NCBI GenBank assembly: GCA_003137095.1
Contig: PLET01000065.1
Location: 1-64,000, forward strand
Reading direction: 5' to 3'
Source of the DNA: Gammaproteobacteria bacterium
Lineage (GTDB): Bacteria; Pseudomonadota; Gammaproteobacteria; Steroidobacterales; Steroidobacteraceae
Length of the DNA: 64,000 nt
Each line of letters begins with the position of its first letter. Within the stretch, counting starts at the first letter, position 1. The notes under the pieces were generated by a model, which did not search any database, was not told where the DNA came from, and saw nothing but the letters and a program-made list of their open reading frames with translations. Shown in pieces: positions 53,860 to 63,855 of the stretch. Made by a program: the position numbers and the translations under genes.

Positions 53860-54018
53860 ATGAAGCGTTTGTTCAAGATATTGATTCCATTGGGTTTGGT
53901 CCTGACCGCCGGCTGCGTCGTCGCGCCGCTGGGCCCGCGCGGCTATTACGGTCCTCGGGTCGCGGTGGTCGCGCCCGCGCCGGTGGTGGTGGTGCGCCCC
54001 TATCACTACGGCTGGTGA
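53860..54018 (+). CDS. small lipoprotein-like protein, 52 aa
   Basis: MKRLFKILIPLGLVLTAGCVVAPLGPRGYYGPRVAVVAPAPVVVVRPYHYGW; lipobox LTAGC; not in ORF track. Confidence 0.65.
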   Translation: MKRLFKILIPLGLVLTAGCVVAPLGPRGYYGPRVAVVAPAPVVVVRPYHYGW

Positions 54019-54199: not shown

Positions 54200-55184
54200 A
54201 TGGCCGCTTCAGAGATCAGCGTCACCGTGCCCGTTTACAACGGTGCGGCCTTTTATGACAGCGCTCTTGACTCGATCCTGCGGCAGGACTGCCCACATTT
54301 AGAGATAATCGTCGTCGACGACGGATCTACCGATGATCTGGACGAGAACATTCGCCGCCGCAGGGTCGGTGTCCGCTGTTTTCGGCAACCGCGGCGCGGT
54401 CCAGCTGCAGCGCGAAACACTGGCATCCGCGCCGCGAGCGCCAGGTGTCCCTGCTGTATCGGCGCCATGCCGCGAACATGACCCGCTGTAGAACCCGCGA
54501 GGCGAACCTGCGCGTCCTGCAGCGGCGTCTGCGGCCGCTGCGGCCGCGCAGACCTATGCCGTCATGGAGACCGTGCTCGTGGACGACGGGTCGTCCGACG
54601 GCACCGCGGAGCTGGTCGCCGAGCGCTTTCCGACCATACGCCTCATCCGGCAGATGCGCACCGGACACCCTGGCGCGCGAAACCGGGGCATTCGCGAGTC
54701 GCGTGGTGAATTCCTCTCCTTCGTCGATCAGGATGACTTATGGTCGCCCGAGAAGACTGAATCCCAGGTTCGGTGCCTGCTCCATGACCCGGCGCTGGAC
54801 CTCGTATTCGGTCACATCCACAATTTCTTCTCACCGGAGATGACGGTGGAGGATACGCGGCGCGTGGCGGCACCGATGAATTCGCTGCCGGGTCAACTGC
54901 AGGGCGCCATGCTTGCCAGGCGGCGCTCATTTGAGCGCGTCGGCCCTTTCAACGAGTTCAGGGATGTCGGCGATTTTCTGGAATGGTATGGACGTGCCAT
55001 GGTTCTGCGACTGAAGGTGCACATGCAGCCGGAGACCGTGTTGCGGCGGCGGATTCACGCCGGCAACCACCAACGGACTCGTACAGATCGGGGGAGAGGC
55101 TACCTCCCGGTGCTCAAGGATCTTCTGGACCTGCGCCGCCGCGCTGCCTCCCGGCCTGGGATCGACGAGCCGCCGGAATCCTGA
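54200..55184 (+). pseudogene. decayed GT2 glycosyltransferase region (at least two remnants)
   Basis: GT2 N-terminus (54200-~54430) joined out of frame to a GT2 C-terminal motif VSLLYRRHAANMT (~54431-54530), then a second GT2 lacking its N-terminus (METVLVDDGSSDG... from 54564, third frame). Confidence 0.75.
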
Positions 55185-55248
55185 CGGCACGACATAACCC
55201 CGGGATTTCGGGGACCGCGCGGTTGCCCATCACGACATCAATTCGCAT

Positions 55249-55788
55249 ATGTCATATCCAAACGAGCCGTTGCTCACCGGGATTTTCTCGGGAATGATTT
55301 GTGAGAATATACCGCAGGTCCGCGCCAAGAAAAAACATCGGGGAATCTCTACCGTGAAATGCACGCATTGGCAGTTGAACGATCGCGAGGTGTCGAGCGA
55401 AGTGATCGAAGGCGAACTCATCGTCATGCACCTTAAAACCGGAAAATATTACTCGAGTTCAGGGACCGGTCCATTGGTCTGGGCATGTCTGGAGGCCGGA
55501 ATGTCGGCCGCCGCGACCCGTGATTTCGTCGCCTCATGCTGTCGCGTGTCGCCACAGTCCATTGAAAGCGACATCGACGGGTTCATCGAGAGCGTGGCCG
55601 CGGAGCAGCTGATGCGCGAGTCGACCGCGGAGGTCGATCCGGTGCCCCCACCGTGCACCGACCCCCCGGTGTACAGCAAACCTGTACTTCAGGTTTACTC
55701 GGATATGAAGGACCTTCTGCTGCTCGATCCGATCCACGACGTGAGTGAGGACGGATGGCCGATGCGGCCGACCGCCGACAAAGCCTGA
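55249..55788 (+). CDS. PqqD-like (RRE-type) protein with C-terminal RiPP-leader-like tail
   Basis: WQLNDREVSSEVIEGELIVMHLKTGKYYSSSGTGPLVWACLEAG PqqD-like; tail YSKPVLQVYSDMKDLLLLDPIHDVSEDGWP; start could be GTG 55351. Confidence 0.8.
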   Translation: MSYPNEPLLTGIFSGMICENIPQVRAKKKHRGISTVKCTHWQLNDREVSSEVIEGELIVMHLKTGKYYSSSGTGPLVWACLEAGMSAAATRDFVASCCRVSPQSIESDIDGFIESVAAEQLMRESTAEVDPVPPPCTDPPVYSKPVLQVYSDMKDLLLLDPIHDVSEDGWPMRPTADKA

Positions 55789-55795
55789 AGTCCTC

Positions 55796-56500
55796 GTGCG
55801 CGCGCCCAGCGTCAGCGTCGTCATCCCCTGCTTCAACGCGGCGGCTTTTCTGGCGACCGCGGTGGAAAGTGTCATCCGGCAGCGCGGCGACCCGATCGAA
55901 ATCATCGTCGTCGACGACGGTTCCACAGACGAAACCGCGTCCATAGCCTTGTCCTTCGGATCGGCCGTCAAACTCCTGCGCCAGCCCAACGCGGGAATCG
56001 GCGCGGCGCGCAACGCCGGGCTGGCGCTCGCCGGCGGCGAAATCGTGGCGTTTCTGGACGCCGATGACCTTTGGACGGACAACTCGCTCGCCGCGCGCTT
56101 GATGGTGTTGCAGGCCTCACCGGACATCGACGGGGTGTTCGGTCAGTGCGAACAATTCTTCGACGCCGGGCTGGATCCCCTTACCAGCGCCAAATGGGCG
56201 GTGGATCTGCGCCGACAGCAATTCCGTAATGCCGGTGCCATGCTCATACGCCGCGTTGCGTTCAATCGCGTCGGCGGCTTCGGCACGGACCTGCAGGTCG
56301 GCGAAATGGTGGATTGGCTCGGACGCGCCGAAGCCGCCGCCGTCGCGTTCGCCAACATCGACGATCTGGTGCTGCTGCGCCGGATTCACGGCAGAAACAA
56401 CTCGTTGCGCACCGACCTGAGGAAGGGCGATATTCTGCGTGCGCTCAAGCGATCCATCGACGTCAGACGCGCGCGACGTGAGCCCCCCGGCGCCTCATGA
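55796..56500 (+). CDS. GT2 family glycosyltransferase
   Basis: VSVVIPCFNAAAFLATAVESVIRQRGDPIEIIVVDDGSTDET, FLDADDLW; GTG start. Confidence 0.88.
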   Translation: MRAPSVSVVIPCFNAAAFLATAVESVIRQRGDPIEIIVVDDGSTDETASIALSFGSAVKLLRQPNAGIGAARNAGLALAGGEIVAFLDADDLWTDNSLAARLMVLQASPDIDGVFGQCEQFFDAGLDPLTSAKWAVDLRRQQFRNAGAMLIRRVAFNRVGGFGTDLQVGEMVDWLGRAEAAAVAFANIDDLVLLRRIHGRNNSLRTDLRKGDILRALKRSIDVRRARREPPGAS

Positions 56501-57672
56501 TGGACGGCGGCGCCTTGCGCAACAGCGCCTTTGAGGAGCCAGGCCTCTGGCCGAGTACGGAGCAGAAACTGGTGCTGAGGGCTGCGCTCGGAGACCGGTG
56601 CGATTCAGGCACGGCATTCGCAGCGTGGCGCCGCGATTTGGACGAATCAAAGCCTTTCGATCATGAGATTGCCAGGCTCCTGCCGCTGCTTTACGACAAC
56701 TTGCGAAGGTGGGACTGCAAGGACGGGCTGATGGACCGCCTCAAAGGCGCGTACCGCATGAATTGGGTCAAAGTTCAGACGCTGTTCGCGCAGCTGCGGC
56801 CGCCGCTCGAGGGGCTCGCGGTGGCGGGAGTCGACATCATCATGCTCAAGGGCGCTCCTTTGGCGGTCGCCTATTATCGAACACCGGCAACGCGTCCGAT
56901 GATGGATATCGACATCGCCGTCCCAGCGAACGAGGTGAGTCGCTGCCTGGCGGTGCTGGGGGGACTGGGCTGGACACCGCGGGCGTTCTTTTGCAAAGAC
57001 GTACTTCGCCTGCGCAACGCGCTTGCCATTTATGGGCCCGATGGACAGGAATTTGATCTTCACTGGCGCATACTCCCGGAGTTTTCGGATCCCCGCGCCG
57101 ACGCGGAGTTCCGCCGACACAGCGTACCCTTCCAATTCTTGGGTCAGGCGGTACACATGCCGGACGCCACGCGGATGCTGGTTCATTCGGTCTTTCACGG
57201 CGTTCGTTGGAACGCGGAGCCGACGGTACGCTGGCTGGCGGACGCCACCTTCATACTGCGCAATCATGCTGGGGAGATCGACTGGGATTGGCTAGCTGAT
57301 TTTGCCCGAAGGTGGCAAATGTCGCACCGCTTGGGGCTGGGCCTTGCCTACCTCGCCGAACACCTCGGGGCTCAGATACCCTTGCATGTGCTGCAGACGC
57401 TGCGCATGCGCCGCCCGACCTGGGTGGAGCGGGTGGAATCGCGCACCTTGCTGCGCGACGAACGCGCGGTTTACGCGGGCATGCTGGGTCCGATCGCGCT
57501 GCCATTCGGCGACTACGTGCGATTCATCGCAGGCGCGAATCCGATCAGGGCGGCCTGGGATTTCGTGGTGTTCCTGCGCATCTATTGGGGACTGCGTCGG
57601 CGGCGGGAAATCGCAGGCTATCTGTGGCGCGGCATCAAGGCCCGCTGGCGGAGGGCGCTGCATGGCCGTTGA
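56497..57672 (+). CDS. nucleotidyltransferase family protein (NTP_transf_5-like)
   Basis: GVDIIMLKGAPLAVAYYRTPATRPMMDIDIAVP...EFDLHWRILPEF. Confidence 0.85.
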   Translation: MMDGGALRNSAFEEPGLWPSTEQKLVLRAALGDRCDSGTAFAAWRRDLDESKPFDHEIARLLPLLYDNLRRWDCKDGLMDRLKGAYRMNWVKVQTLFAQLRPPLEGLAVAGVDIIMLKGAPLAVAYYRTPATRPMMDIDIAVPANEVSRCLAVLGGLGWTPRAFFCKDVLRLRNALAIYGPDGQEFDLHWRILPEFSDPRADAEFRRHSVPFQFLGQAVHMPDATRMLVHSVFHGVRWNAEPTVRWLADATFILRNHAGEIDWDWLADFARRWQMSHRLGLGLAYLAEHLGAQIPLHVLQTLRMRRPTWVERVESRTLLRDERAVYAGMLGPIALPFGDYVRFIAGANPIRAAWDFVVFLRIYWGLRRRREIAGYLWRGIKARWRRALHGR

Positions 57673-59392
57673 GGATCGTCTGGTCTGGCTGGGGCTGCCG
57701 GACGCCTCCGGGCGGGCGCTGCTGGCGCGGTATTTCCGACCGTGGTATGGCCTGCTCGCGTTCTACGTGATCCTGGCGTCCGTTCAATCGCTGGGCAATC
57801 TGCCGGTGCTGTGGCTGCTGAAGATGCTGTTCGATACGGCGCTGCCAAGGGGTGACATCCGGCTGTTGATCGAACTGGCGGGCGGCGTGCTGGCGATCCG
57901 GATGGCATCCAGCCTGCTCGGATTGTTCCTGAGGTGGATCGTCGTGCGGATCATCAAGCGGTCCGTCGCCAATATGCGCGGCGATCTGCTGTGCACCGTC
58001 TACGGCGGATTCGAACGGCCAGGCAGCGCGGCGGATCTCGATCGTCTGCACTCGCGGATCGTCAACGATACCGAACGGATCGACGGCGTCTGCAACGCGC
58101 TGCTGTCCGGTATGCTGCCGGCCGCCATCACCAGCATTGCCCTGCTGATCGTGCTGTTCCGTCAAAGCTGGGTCTTGATGGGCATCGGTGCCTTGACATT
58201 GCCTGTAGTGTGGATGACGTCGCGACTCGCGAGGCGCAGACTGCAGCGCGTGGTTGCGAGATTTCACGACGCCTTCGAGGCCTTCAGCAAATCGGCATCG
58301 TTCGCCCTTCGGCAATTGCGCCTGACACGCGTACAGGGTTTCGAGGACGGGGAACTCAGGCGCCAAAAGGGCATTCTCGGGAAGCTCGAGCGCGACGGCG
58401 TGCGCATGTCCATGGCATTCGCTCTGCATAATGATCTTCAGGTCATGATGTCCGGCTGGGGGGCCATTCTGTTATTGGTGGCTGGTGGATTCGAGGTCAT
58501 CTCCGGGCGCATGACTTTCGGCGCCCTGGCCGTCTTCTATTTCGGCGCCGGCATGCTTTATGGGTTGATGGGATCCCTGCTCGGTGCCGCGGCGGAAGTC
58601 GCCGGCGGCCAGCAGTCGCTGCGGCACGTGGCGACATTGACCGAAGCGGCAGCGCTTCGAACCGGCGGCTGCGCCACGATCCGGTTTCAGGGCGGATTCG
58701 GACTCGAGGGCGTCATTTTCGACTACGCGGGAACGCGGGTGTTGAACGGCGTGGATCTGGTCATCCCGGCGGGTGCCCGGGTGGCCATCATCGGCGCCAA
58801 CGGCTCGGGCAAATCCACCTTGCTGGGGGTGATGCTTGGGTTGTTGCGTCCGGCGGCGGGAGTGGTGCGAGCTGACGGTCAGGATTGCGCAGCCATGGAC
58901 CTGCCGGCATTCCGCCGCCAGATCGGCGTCGTACTTCAGCACCCGTCCTTTTTCCACGGTACGGTGCGGGAGAACATCGCCTACGGAGTGCCGGAAGCGG
59001 ACGATGCCGCCATCGCGGAGGCGGTCGCACTCGCGGGAGCCGGTGAGTTGATCGCCTCCCTGTCCGGAGGCTATGACGCCCTGCTCGGCGAGGGCGGCGC
59101 CACGCTTTCCGGCGGCGAGACCCAGCGGTTGGCCATTGCCCGCGCGCTGTTGCGGCGGCCGCGCGCGCTCGTGCTGGATGAGCCCACCAATCATCTTGAC
59201 GTGAATGCGGTGTGCCAACTGATCGACACGTTTGCCCATCTGACGCCCCGCCCGACCGTGGTCCTCGTGAGCCACGATGCGCGCGTGCTGGAAATCGTCG
59301 ACGCAACCTATCGGCTGGAGGGCGGCAGTCTGCACAAAATGGTCCGTCATGAACCGGCACGCGGTGCAGCACCCACGGCCGCGGGCGCCTGA
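57662..59392 (+). CDS. ABC transporter, fused permease/ATPase (peptide/lipid exporter type)
   Basis: Walker A IIGANGSGKSTLLGVML, signature LSGGETQRLAIARALL; start MAVEDRLVWLGL inside longer ORF. Confidence 0.9.
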   Translation: MAVEDRLVWLGLPDASGRALLARYFRPWYGLLAFYVILASVQSLGNLPVLWLLKMLFDTALPRGDIRLLIELAGGVLAIRMASSLLGLFLRWIVVRIIKRSVANMRGDLLCTVYGGFERPGSAADLDRLHSRIVNDTERIDGVCNALLSGMLPAAITSIALLIVLFRQSWVLMGIGALTLPVVWMTSRLARRRLQRVVARFHDAFEAFSKSASFALRQLRLTRVQGFEDGELRRQKGILGKLERDGVRMSMAFALHNDLQVMMSGWGAILLLVAGGFEVISGRMTFGALAVFYFGAGMLYGLMGSLLGAAAEVAGGQQSLRHVATLTEAAALRTGGCATIRFQGGFGLEGVIFDYAGTRVLNGVDLVIPAGARVAIIGANGSGKSTLLGVMLGLLRPAAGVVRADGQDCAAMDLPAFRRQIGVVLQHPSFFHGTVRENIAYGVPEADDAAIAEAVALAGAGELIASLSGGYDALLGEGGATLSGGETQRLAIARALLRRPRALVLDEPTNHLDVNAVCQLIDTFAHLTPRPTVVLVSHDARVLEIVDATYRLEGGSLHKMVRHEPARGAAPTAAGA

Positions 59393-61216
59393 GTGACCGA
59401 ACCCAACGGCAACTCGAGATTCGGTCAGCGGTCCGAGGCCGAACAAGCGGCGTTCGTCGGAGCGGTGCTGCAGGCAAGCCGCGAGGCCGAGAAGCGAGTC
59501 GCGCCCTTGCGGGCTGCGCTGCGCATCGCCGGATGCAGGATCGACGTGCTGTTCACCGGGGCGCGGATGGTCGAACAGCTCCTGCCGGCACTGCGCCACA
59601 ATCTGATTGGTGACGGATCGGCGGCCAAAGCGGTCGTGCACGTCTGGGACACGACGACGACCGGTGCGCGCATGCCGCCGCCGCCCTGCGGCGCGGAGCA
59701 TTTCACCGACCGCGGAGATATCTGGGGCTTCAAGAGCACGCGTTATCGAATCGTTTACCAGCAGGCAGAGTGCGCGGTCAATGTGATGGATCTCGCGACC
59801 GGCGAGGCGGCGTATTGGGTTCACCATCCCGAGAACATGCCGTTCTGGACCAAGGCTTCGCCGCTGCGCACCATTTTGCACTGGACCTTGGAGAAGGACG
59901 GGGCGCAACTGCTGCATGCCGCGGCGATCGGCGACACGCGCGGTGCAGTACTGTTGACGGGCAAGGGTGGCATCGGCAAGTCAACCACGTCGTTGGCGGC
60001 GCTCAGGGACGGCTTGAGCTACGTAGGCGACGACTACGTGGCCGTACGACTGACGCCGGCGCCGCAGGTATTCTCGCTATATTGCACCGCCAAATTGAAT
60101 GCTCAGGACATGGAGAAATTTCCGGCCCTGGCCGCGCACGTGACCAATGTCCCGTCGATCTACGGGGAAAAGGCCGTCATCGATCTGCGTGGCATGTCGA
60201 GCCAGTTGCGGGTCGAGATGCCGCTGCGAGCCGTGCTCACGCCGCGCGTGATCGGCGGTTTGGATACCGACTTCGTACCCGCGGATCCCTTGACGATACG
60301 GCGGGCGGCGGCCTTCACCACATTGGCGCAATTGCCATACGCGGGCCAGCAAACCCAGGATTTCATCGAGCGGCTGGTAGACAGTCTGCCCTGCTTTACG
60401 CTGCGCTTGGGCACCGATATGCGGCGGGTGACGCTGGCGATCGAATCCTTGCTTGTGGATTCTGAAGCCGGGGTGCGCAGTTCGACCACTCTCGAGGAGC
60501 CGCCAGTGCAGGCATCCGGCCCGACGCCGCTGGTGAGCGTGATCGTACCCGTCTACAATGGCGCGACATTCTTGCGCGATGCCATCGACAGCATCCTCGC
60601 GCAGAATTATCCGAGCCTCGAGATCCTGGTGATCGATGACGGCTCGCAGGACGACATCGACGCTGCCGTGGCACGACTCCCGGTCGACGTGCGTTTCGTC
60701 AGGCAGCCGAATCGGGGGCCGGCCGGGGCACGGAATCGTGGCGTGGGGGACGCCTCGGGTTCCATCATCGCTTTTCTGGACGTGGATGACCTATGGCCCC
60801 CGGGCACATTGCGGATTCTGTTGCGCGAACTTGCGGCCGATCCGAATCTGCAGGTCGTGCAGGGCGATGCTCTGGTGCTCGTCAGAGATGCGGCCTCGGG
60901 ACACTACGACGTCACCGGCGATCCGGAATTGGCGTTTCCCTTCTACATCGGCGCCGCCCTCTACCGGCGCAGCGTGTTCGAAAAGATAGGCCTGTTCGAC
61001 GATCGAATGCGCCTCGCGGAGGATACCGATTGGTACATGAGGCTGCAGGAGAGCGGACTGACGTACCGGCGCGTCGACCACGTGAGCCTGCACGTGCGGC
61101 GGCATGGCGGCAACATGACGCTGGCGGTTCCTCAATCTGACTTGATCAAGTCGACCATGGCCGCAATCAAGAAATCTCTGGATCGGACCCGCGGCACGGG
61201 CCGGCCTCCCCGCTGA
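59393..61216 (+). CDS. HprK-like serine kinase domain fused to a GT2 glycosyltransferase domain
   Basis: AVLLTGKGGIGKSTTSLAALRDGLSYVGDDYVAV plus VSVIVPVYNGATFLRDAIDSILAQNYPSLEILVIDDGS in one uninterrupted frame; GTG start. Confidence 0.88.
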   Translation: MTEPNGNSRFGQRSEAEQAAFVGAVLQASREAEKRVAPLRAALRIAGCRIDVLFTGARMVEQLLPALRHNLIGDGSAAKAVVHVWDTTTTGARMPPPPCGAEHFTDRGDIWGFKSTRYRIVYQQAECAVNVMDLATGEAAYWVHHPENMPFWTKASPLRTILHWTLEKDGAQLLHAAAIGDTRGAVLLTGKGGIGKSTTSLAALRDGLSYVGDDYVAVRLTPAPQVFSLYCTAKLNAQDMEKFPALAAHVTNVPSIYGEKAVIDLRGMSSQLRVEMPLRAVLTPRVIGGLDTDFVPADPLTIRRAAAFTTLAQLPYAGQQTQDFIERLVDSLPCFTLRLGTDMRRVTLAIESLLVDSEAGVRSSTTLEEPPVQASGPTPLVSVIVPVYNGATFLRDAIDSILAQNYPSLEILVIDDGSQDDIDAAVARLPVDVRFVRQPNRGPAGARNRGVGDASGSIIAFLDVDDLWPPGTLRILLRELAADPNLQVVQGDALVLVRDAASGHYDVTGDPELAFPFYIGAALYRRSVFEKIGLFDDRMRLAEDTDWYMRLQESGLTYRRVDHVSLHVRRHGGNMTLAVPQSDLIKSTMAAIKKSLDRTRGTGRPPR

Positions 61217-61226
61217 GCACCGGCGC

Positions 61227-62351
61227 GTGAGGGTGCTCTTCTGGAATCACATGTATCTGCCCGATCTCGGCGGGCTGGAAACGTTCACGTCAAGGCTCGC
61301 CCACGAATTGTGCACGCGCGGACACGAAGTCATGGTCGCGACCACCTGGAATGACCCCTCGCTGCCGCAGCGGCAGATCGTCGACGGAATTCGCGTCGCG
61401 CGCCTGCCGTTTCACAAGGCCATGCGCGGCGACGACCCACTCACTACGATGCGTACGCTCAAGGCGGCTGCGGCGCTGAAGGCCGAATTCCGGCCCGATG
61501 TCATCCACGTACATTTCGCGGATCCCAACGTGTTTTTTCATTTGCGAACGCGCGCAGCGTATGACGCGCCAATGGTGGTCACGTTTCACATACCTTTTTC
61601 CGACGGGCGGACGGCGCGCGGCGGAGTTGTCGATGAGATGGTCGGCGCGGCGCGCGCGCTGATCGCCGTGAGCACCGCCAATGCCCGCGCGGTTGCCATC
61701 GGCGTCGGCGTGCCGGTCAACGCGATCGAAGTACTGTGTCCGGGCGTCCCCGACGTGGAATGGGTTCCCCCGGCACAACCCCGGCCGTGCAGCGGACCCT
61801 TCGTGTTTGTCGGCCGGCTGGTGCGCGACAAAGGCTGTGATATTGCCGTCGAGGCGCTGGCTGGGGTGCGTGCAGCGGGATGGCCGGCCAGTCTGAGAAT
61901 CGTGGGCGCCGGACCGGAAACCCCTCACCTGCAGGCTCTCATCGAAGCACGCGGACTGCGGCCGAGCGTCGAATTGGCGGGGGGCGTGGAACCGCGCGCG
62001 GTGCCCGGCCTGATGGCGGAGGCTTGCGCGGTGCTGATACCCTCCAGGTATGCGGAGCCGTTCGGCATGGTGGCGGTGGAGGCGGCACTCATGTGCCGTC
62101 CCGTCATAGCGGCGGCGACGGGCGGTCTGCAGGAAATCGTGGTGCACGAGCGCACGGGCTACCTGGTACCGGTGGATGATCCCGCCGCGCTGTCCGCGCA
62201 CATGATCCGGGTGCTCGCTGATCCGGCCGCCGCCGCCGCCATGGGCAACGCCGGCCGCGCACGCGCTCTCAGCCGCTATTCCCTGCACGCCGTGGCGGAT
62301 CGATACCTCGGCATCTACTCCGCAGCCACGCAACGCGAACTTGACGGTTGA
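61227..62351 (+). CDS. GT4 family glycosyltransferase
   Basis: YLPDLGGLETFTSRLAHEL, FVFVGRLVRDKGCDIAVEAL, VLIPSRYAEPFGMVAVEAA. Confidence 0.92.
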   Translation: MRVLFWNHMYLPDLGGLETFTSRLAHELCTRGHEVMVATTWNDPSLPQRQIVDGIRVARLPFHKAMRGDDPLTTMRTLKAAAALKAEFRPDVIHVHFADPNVFFHLRTRAAYDAPMVVTFHIPFSDGRTARGGVVDEMVGAARALIAVSTANARAVAIGVGVPVNAIEVLCPGVPDVEWVPPAQPRPCSGPFVFVGRLVRDKGCDIAVEALAGVRAAGWPASLRIVGAGPETPHLQALIEARGLRPSVELAGGVEPRAVPGLMAEACAVLIPSRYAEPFGMVAVEAALMCRPVIAAATGGLQEIVVHERTGYLVPVDDPAALSAHMIRVLADPAAAAAMGNAGRARALSRYSLHAVADRYLGIYSAATQRELDG

Positions 62352-62370
62352 CCGCCCGACGCGCGCGAAT

Positions 62371-63855
62371 TCAAGCCTCGCAGTCGGCGACGACCCGGGT
62401 CGTGACGAGGTAGATGTCCACCGCGTATTCCGCTTCGTCGTAGCGGCGTCCGCCGATCGAGAATTTATGTACGCTGCAGTCGAACAGCCAACGCTGCGTG
62501 GCGGGGTCGAGTCCCGCCCTCGAGCGATCGAGCACTATCCAAAGCCTTCCGCCCGCCGATCCGAGCCGCTTCAGCTCTGCAACCGACTGCGGGCCCCGCG
62601 ACAGCGGAAAACTCGGTGCGCAGCAGCCTTTCGCGTAAAGCCGGAACAAGGAGACCGCATAACCCGTCACGCGGTCACCGGACTGCCAGTGTTCGCGGAC
62701 ATACTGCACGGCACCGCGCTCGTCGATGCGCGAACCGTCGACGAAGTGGCTGGCGAGTGCCGGCACGTTCACCAGACAGATCGTGCCCAACCACGCGCCG
62801 GCAGCCAGGGCGCTGCGCGCGAGCAGCAGGCGGTAGATCACGGCGATCGCGTAGCCCGCGGCGACCAGCGCACCGAGCACGAATGGGAAGGAATATTCGA
62901 CGTGATATACCATGATCAATGGCAGCAATATCGTAGCCGCCAGCCAACCCAGCAGACAAACCAGCCAGTACGCATTCTGCGCGGAAGGGTCGCGAAGCAT
63001 CAACAGGGCGCCCACCGCCGCCAGCAATGCCACCGGCCATCCGATCATTACAATCGATCCCAGCACGGAGTGAAGCGTCGAATAGCCCCAGTCCGCGCCC
63101 TGATTCCAGTCGTGCACCAGCGGGCGCACGTAGAAAATCGCAAAAGCCGCCAGTAGCAGCGCGGCGGCGGCGAACATCCCCCAGACCGCGCGTGGCAGCG
63201 TGCGATGTCCAGTCCGGGCTCCGGCCGCGACCGCCGTGCACAGCAGGGGAAGCATGATCAGCAGCAACGTGTGCGATAGTGTCGCGGCGCATGCCAGCGC
63301 GCCGGCGAGCATGGCGCGGTAAATCTCCGCCCGGTGCATCGAACGACCACCCGGGTTCCACAGTAGTCGCGCGCCGACCAACAGGCACGCGGATCCGAAC
63401 AGGGCCGCGACTACATAGAAGCGCGCCTCCTGGCTATGCGCAACGTGCTGCGGCATCAATGCCATCAGCAAAGCGGTTGCCAGCGCGGTTGGCCGCCCCA
63501 TGGGACCATCCAGCAGCAGGAACGTCAGCATCACGCACAAAGTGCCCAGCAGTGCACTCATGGTGCGAAAGCCGCGCTCATCGGAACCGAACAGCGTGTG
63601 GCCTGCGTGGAACAGCAGGTAGCTCACGGGGATCAAGCGCGGCAGCCGGTAGGCCTGATCGCCGTCCGGAACCGGCTGCGCATGAAACATAATGCGCTCC
63701 TCGGTGAGCGTCGCCGACTCATCGCCCGAGTAGGCCCACACGCCCAGGCTGTGGAAGCGGAGCACCGCCGCGAGTACCGCCAGGCAGATCGCCGAGATCA
63801 GGAGGTTCCCATGTTTTGACAAGTGGTTTCGCCCGATCGCTGTTTCCAGTGACAT
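62371..63855 (-). CDS. GT39-like membrane glycosyltransferase
   Basis: Multi-TM protein; LRFHSLGVWAYSGDESATLTEERI, ALMPQHVAHSQEARFYVVAALFG. Confidence 0.85.
   Translation of the reverse strand: MSLETAIGRNHLSKHGNLLISAICLAVLAAVLRFHSLGVWAYSGDESATLTEERIMFHAQPVPDGDQAYRLPRLIPVSYLLFHAGHTLFGSDERGFRTMSALLGTLCVMLTFLLLDGPMGRPTALATALLMALMPQHVAHSQEARFYVVAALFGSACLLVGARLLWNPGGRSMHRAEIYRAMLAGALACAATLSHTLLLIMLPLLCTAVAAGARTGHRTLPRAVWGMFAAAALLLAAFAIFYVRPLVHDWNQGADWGYSTLHSVLGSIVMIGWPVALLAAVGALLMLRDPSAQNAYWLVCLLGWLAATILLPLIMVYHVEYSFPFVLGALVAAGYAIAVIYRLLLARSALAAGAWLGTICLVNVPALASHFVDGSRIDERGAVQYVREHWQSGDRVTGYAVSLFRLYAKGCCAPSFPLSRGPQSVAELKRLGSAGGRLWIVLDRSRAGLDPATQRWLFDCSVHKFSIGGRRYDEAEYAVDIYLVTTRVVADCEA

Follow-up and report, generated by a model that had tools for sequence, protein, structure and literature searches.

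A PqqD-type RRE with a conserved, predicted leader-like C-terminal tail, tied to one subfamily of HprK-like kinases

Most prokaryotic RiPP pathways share one recognition part, the RRE, which is usually regarded as a binder of separate precursors. In an ordinary pathway the leader comes with such a precursor, and a peptidase removes it. The DNA considered here, a stretch of 64,000 nucleotides referred to as the window, contains a PqqD gene whose product raises a question about this arrangement: what does an RRE do when a leader-like segment appears to be part of its own chain, with a second conserved motif behind it? The gene and its parts are given below.

55249 to 55788, plus strand: tailed PqqD/RRE gene, an open reading frame of 179 aa from the ATG at 55249, with its stop codon at 55786-55788
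55369 to 55617, plus strand: RRE (PqqD) domain, residues 41-123 (Pfam; AF2 pLDDT 91-98; Foldseek)
55618 to 55671, plus strand: Pro/Ala-rich, unconserved linker, residues 124-141 (conservation and linker lengths)
55672 to 55698, plus strand: putative leader-like docking segment YSKPVLQVY, residues 142-150 (AF2 strand at 146-150; covariation of 108-142, 119-149 and 71-147)
55702 to 55761, plus strand: second tail segment DMKDLLLLDPIHDVSEDGWP, residues 152-171, conserved in 108 loci and proposed as a kinase-engaging signal

The PqqD domain PF05402 matches residues 56-120 of the open reading frame (E 1.2e-6, above the Pfam cut-off), leaving the last 38 residues, 142-179 (55672-55785), outside the match. 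A first, sequence-only reading had pointed to an open reading frame of about 180 aa, longer than a PqqD domain alone, and to a C-terminal tail of 38 residues, and the letters that it quoted agree exactly with 55672-55785. The 179 aa counted from the ATG may nevertheless overstate the length. At 55354 lies a GTG, nine bases downstream of a GGGGA; it is a likely alternative start because the resulting 144 aa fits the 126-158 aa of the relatives, as measured with their chosen starts. The same reading likened the tail to the motif YxxPxLxxxGxxxxLT of lasso-type leaders. The likeness is partial: the tail has the Y/FxxPxL half, whereas D152 and L stand where the motif has G and T.

The first matter to settle is whether such a tail could be an accident of one genome. 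A similarity search with the window protein as single query gave no related loci, and a DNA pattern for [DN]PIH[DE]VxxxGWP was used instead. The pattern matched once in the window and never in 100 shuffles, and the occurrence of the tail is on this count judged not to be due to chance. Among 84,980 species genomes, at least 117 contigs were matched. About 15 of these matches lie in DNA polymerase I of Variovorax and other Burkholderiales and were discarded as coincidence, together with two that were unusable. Pattern, profile and similarity searches together gathered 108 loci, in all of which the tail is the C-terminus of a PqqD open reading frame. Its consensus, [F/Y]xxPxLxxYxDMxDLLLLDPIH[D/E]VxxxGWP, is kept across at least 14 named phyla. 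The tail thus recurs on PqqD proteins, as the sequence-only reading had supposed it might; the stand-alone peptides near HprK-like kinases that it had also envisaged were not found, as none of the 108 loci holds a free-standing copy.

Residues within the search pattern are invariant through the selection of loci by that pattern. Beyond it, conservation is high at P145, L147, the aromatic residue 150, D152, M/L153, D/E155, L156 and L157, and among fresh relatives found by profile and not by pattern, 14 of 15 keep the DPxH..GW element. A profile search of 399 genomes of the phylum returned 7 full-length tailed matches, each at 109 bits or more, and about 110 PqqD matches that end near position 95-128 and reach at most 66 bits. 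In each of two other phyla, the tailed PqqD is present in about 2 % of genomes.

Several loci deserve a separate word. The source genome encodes a second tailed PqqD (G000:C1:42017-42514, L003:9036-9521), 55 % identical and with the tail YARPQLQVYTDMKDLLQLNPIHDVSEEGWP; it lies on a different contig, has no kinase or glycosyltransferase neighbours and is unlinked to the window cluster. A divergent tailed PqqD, L163/L133 (G624), has the tail DPVHDSGEEGWP and a divergent kinase (about 150 bits), and this could be an early branch of the PqqD-kinase pair. In L218 (G1181:C723) the docking half is intact and the end reads LALDPMPGVMDFPWQE, which may mean that the second motif has decayed or changed, or that the frame is at fault. 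The tailed locus L038 lies on a contig titled as a Klebsiella pneumoniae MAG, a title that is maybe misassigned.

The tail may be examined against its domain by modelling the two together, as the sequence-only reading had proposed. Modelled by AF2 on an alignment of 94 relatives, the protein takes an RRE fold with a mean pLDDT of 86.6, and tail residues 146-150 (VLQVY) are predicted to form a further strand. By blocks, the pLDDT averages 93 over residues 136-145, 84 over 146-155 and 59-72 thereafter, which places the DPIH..GWP end at low confidence. The nearest solved folds in Foldseek are leader-bound TbiB1 (top, 5v1u/5v1v) and TfuB1, with probability 1.0; by sequence and model, the window domain is assigned to the PqqD/B1-type RRE fold. 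A tail that varied among orthologues, or that belonged to an unrelated fold, would have spoken against the original idea; this tail is conserved and is not modelled in that way.

Covariation points to the same docking. Residue 108 is Asp or Glu in 19 of the 24 rows with Tyr142 and in 7 of the 44 rows with Phe142 (Fisher 6e-7), the strongest such coupling of all domain positions, the next acidic position having a p of 6e-3. Permutation within phyla gave a p of 5e-5; it took the place of an independent-pairs test on the tree, which offered only 2 supported pairs. By alignment and hand mapping, residue 108 corresponds to LppB D70 and PbaB1 Q79, which hydrogen-bond the leader Tyr/Trp in crystals (PMC13381572). 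All four of the alignment's strongest long-range couplings join the domain to the tail, 71-147 among them, and residue 71 aligns with LppB N33. When both 119 and 149 carry a charge, the signs are opposite in 47 of 47 cases (42 as -,+ and 5 as +,-, none like-charged), and fresh sequences repeat this in 10 of 10, again with none like-charged; the swap of signs may go back to one event in Bacillota. About a quarter of the tails have no aromatic residue at 142, so the docking must vary. The linker between residues 121 and 142 measures 16-33 aa in relatives, and docking in cis is allowed because of these lengths. Leader-like docking of the tail in the RRE groove, in cis or between two copies, is a prediction for which model and alignment speak well. 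The original suggestion, that the RRE bears its recognition sequence on the same chain, gains from the predicted strand docking, the covariation at the leader-Tyr-binding position and the charge complementarity alike.

A docked tail does not by itself reveal a function, and two modest roles could be read from the same model. The tail, which packs on the domain in the AF2 prediction, could merely stabilise the fold, with the kinase link described below a matter of operon inheritance. This is very improbable: conservation is higher in the DPIH..GWP motif than in the fold core, the motif is modelled at low confidence, and untailed PqqD proteins are stable and far commoner. The tail could also be an autoinhibitory pseudo-leader, occupying the groove for as long as neither a real, unlinked precursor nor a kinase pushes it out. 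The occupied groove of the model and the flexible linker would suit such a plug, but conservation is strongest beyond the docking segment, where a plug has no need of it, and the loci hold no linked precursor family; we hold this role to be doubtful.

The strongest conservation turns attention to the partners that might read it. The other genes of the cluster are as follows.

55745 to 56500, plus strand: GT2 glycosyltransferase after the PqqD gene, an open reading frame (Pfam PF00535) of uncertain start that overlaps the tail codons
56497 to 57672, plus strand: NTP_transf_5 nucleotidyltransferase (Pfam PF14907, E 6.6e-39)
57668 to 59392, plus strand: MsbA-type ABC exporter (Pfam PF00664 and PF00005)
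59393 to 60484, plus strand: HprK-like kinase part (residues 1-364) of an HprK-GT2 fusion, with a PEPCK/HprK fold in AF2
60524 to 61216, plus strand: GT2 glycosyltransferase domain fused to the kinase (Pfam PF00535)
61227 to 62351, plus strand: GT4 glycosyltransferase (Pfam PF00534)

Models of defence systems had no match here. Between 54200 and 55184 lies GT2-like sequence in two frames, one an N-terminal piece ending at 54481 and the other starting near 54564 without an N-terminus, an arrangement suggestive of two remnants or of a gene that has been disrupted. Upstream of the cluster, at 53860-54015, a small open reading frame has a signal-like N-terminus and a Cys (MKRLFKILIPLGLVLTAGCVVAPLGP...); its product is possibly a lipoprotein.

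The tailed PqqD is tied to one subfamily of HprK-like kinases. In 96 of the 108 fetched loci such a kinase lies on the same strand, mostly as the next gene; the raw count had been taken over 109 loci and included one DNA polymerase artefact, L081. The unlinked second copy of the source genome, L003, is one of the other 12. For the remaining 11 loci, the kinase was located in the genomes of 8, being confirmed on the same contig for L071, L100, L109, L113, L117 and L125, which brings the total to 102 of 108, and shown in the same genome only for L056 and L104. The genomes of L015, L022 and L032 were searched and gave no full-length kinase match. An impression that Chloroflexota loci are without the kinase proved wrong, as in most cases it lies farther away on the same contig. 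Among the 399 genomes, kinases of at least 147 bits occur in exactly the 6 that have a tailed PqqD, and adjacent to it; the profile was built from kinases beside tailed PqqD genes, which accounts for part of the gap in score though not for the adjacency. The source genome has a single kinase of this subfamily. The window kinase is predicted to have a PEPCK/HprK fold (AF2 pLDDT 95.4). H175, K196 and D214 are invariant and D213 is near-invariant, and the His-Lys-Asp-Asp set of lasso tailoring kinases is kept in the kinases of tailed PqqD loci.

Nucleotidyltransferase and sugar-transfer genes are the other frequent company. NTP_transf_5 occurs in all 14 tailed genomes tested and, as read from coordinates, lies near the tailed PqqD or the kinase in 13. 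GT2 is present in 85 loci, and NTP_transf_5 and glycosyltransferases are the usual neighbours of the tailed PqqD. On a Crinalium plasmid, the tailed PqqD gene is followed by nucleotidyltransferase and HPr kinase genes. Five HprK-GT2 fusions were found among the loci, that of the window (59393-61216) and those of L034, L041, L097 and L110, and by their domain make-up these would link the kinase to glycosyl transfer. No natural PqqD-kinase fusion was seen among the loci. Covariation between the two proteins was also considered: residue 142 couples with many kinase sites, a pattern that was read as shared ancestry and dismissed as evidence. The proposal that the tail serves as a docking site for kinase and glycosyltransferase partners is upheld for the kinase as far as strict co-occurrence with one kinase subfamily goes; inter-protein covariation is uninformative on contact. 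We infer that the kinase is the likeliest reader of the second half of the tail.

What such a kinase would act on depends on the parts of a RiPP pathway that accompany it. The B2 leader peptidase (PF13471) is absent from the source genome, and none lies near the tailed loci in 13 other genomes. Three tailed genomes offer an internal contrast: there, B2 adjoins another PqqD that has no tail and is accompanied by a kinase and an NTP_transf_5 of its own. No Asn-synthetase-like cyclase C is among the eight proteins of the window that were scanned (54564-63855), and no SpI-like leader peptidase was found among the window proteins scanned. BLAST clustering of small open reading frames from the 108 loci gave no recurring family of separate precursors, and small frames with an RBS and a YxxP motif were not enriched (2 on the same strand vs 4 on the opposite strand), in a test that would miss a strongly variable or unlinked precursor. 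An untailed PqqD and HprK locus provides a contrast to the tailed loci: L203 (G483:C6:421000-430500) has, near 1503-1706, a 54-aa open reading frame with a WxxP leader motif, a candidate lasso-type precursor.

With no other precursor found, the tail could itself be the substrate, RRE and precursor forming one chain whose DPIH..GWP segment is modified by phosphate, a nucleotide-linked sugar and further sugars and then exported, with or without release. The product would be a conserved ribosomal one like PQQ or mycofactocin, unlike the variable antibiotics. The leader half of the tail, which is predicted to dock as a leader does, the invariant D, H, W and P at the C-terminus, and an enzyme set equal to that of LPP and kinase-type lasso tailoring would all fit. 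Against this stand the missing leader peptidase nearby and the invariance of the segment, which leaves no variable core. Additionally, the tail cannot be an obligatory substrate for the O-phosphorylation known for this type of kinase, and is unlikely to be a general one: Ser/Thr is missing after GWP in 53 of 107 tails, and the tails of L058 and L092, both with a kinase beside them, contain no Ser, Thr or Tyr at all. We regard a tail that is substrate as possible but unlikely. A similarly tentative standing is given to its wider form, a widespread unrecognised class in which the RRE offers an invariant DPIH[D/E]VxxxGWP core to kinase, nucleotidyltransferase and glycosyltransferases, yielding a conserved phospho-glyco product that could be a carrier, a cofactor or a surface anchor, and again not a variable antibiotic.

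The favoured explanation, which we consider probable, is that of a self-loaded RRE acting as an adaptor for the kinase and the sugar-transfer enzymes; a tail that is its own precursor ranks after it, then the plug, then the structural extra. Y142-Y150 would dock in the RRE groove in the manner of a lasso or LPP leader, in cis or between copies, so that the domain would be permanently loaded. The segment DxxxLLxLDPIH[D/E]VxxxGWP, held in a fixed place, would be a signal for the dedicated HprK-like kinase, and perhaps NTP_transf_5 and the glycosyltransferases would read it also. The tailed RRE would be a fixed adaptor or an activating subunit of a module made up of the kinase and the sugar-transfer enzymes. 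The product of this module, phosphorylated and glycosylated, would leave the cell through the ABC transporter. A fixed adaptor appears most likely because neither a separate precursor nor a leader peptidase was found. What the sequences themselves show is the conservation of the tail, its place at the C-terminus of PqqD, the kinase linkage, the covariation and, within the searches made, the lack of a precursor family and of B2. The docking geometry and the kinase fold are predictions of the models, and we infer the engagement of the kinase, the adaptor role and the nature of the product.

If true, this would mean that, in a family found in at least 14 phyla, RREs serve either as self-loaded adaptors or as the substrate itself. 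The tail offers short, testable motifs for tracing what orphan HprK-like kinases act on. Additionally, 21 % of PF05402 proteins are larger than a discrete RRE and have no further annotation (PMC12710340), and the tailed family gives a concrete identity to part of these oversized proteins.

Compared with known systems, the nearest relatives by fold are the discrete lasso B1 RREs (TbiB1 5v1u/5v1v, TfuB1 6jx3, PbaB1 9x90). They share the wHTH domain (profile E 3e-18 to TbiB1), the Y/W/FxxPxL peptide and equivalent leader-binding positions, whereas in the window family the leader-like segment is part of the RRE, an invariant DPIH..GWP is added, and neither B2 nor a separate precursor was found. 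LPP clusters (PMC13381572) likewise have an RRE, an HprK-like kinase, an NTP transferase, an MsbA-like exporter and a YxxP leader, but they use a separate precursor with a Ser acceptor, an SpI-like peptidase and the motif YxxPxVLxHQxIxFETxxS. The part of the LPP leader that corresponds to the second tail half makes no contact with the RRE, and is proposed to touch the modifying enzymes (PMC13381572). The lasso tailoring kinases PadeK/ThcoK and the nucleotidyltransferase PsmN (PMC9266682) share the His-Lys-Asp-Asp set and the pairing of kinase and nucleotidyltransferase; the substrates known for them carry a C-terminal Ser, which half of the tails here do not have.

The HPr-rel-A and SynChlorMet cassettes (TIGR04353/TIGR04352 and TIGR04248/TIGR04249) also place a PqqD-type protein beside an HprK-related kinase. 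Some members of the tailed family match these models weakly, but neither PqqD model matches the window protein, the tail is outside every model, and the window kinase reaches 19-29 bits where the HprK-related models set cut-offs of 200. The PQQ equivalog of PqqD, TIGR03859, leaves the window protein unmatched at E<=1. No Pfam or NCBIfam model covers the tail, and where window proteins do match NCBIfam, the scores stay below cut-off. The literature searched, which left out most subscription papers, contains no description of the tail motif, and a search on SynChlorMet gave none either. Domain, leader logic and enzyme set are all familiar from these systems; as far as searched, it is the combination of a permanent leader fusion, an invariant second motif and a one-to-one pairing with a kinase that sets the tailed family apart as undescribed.
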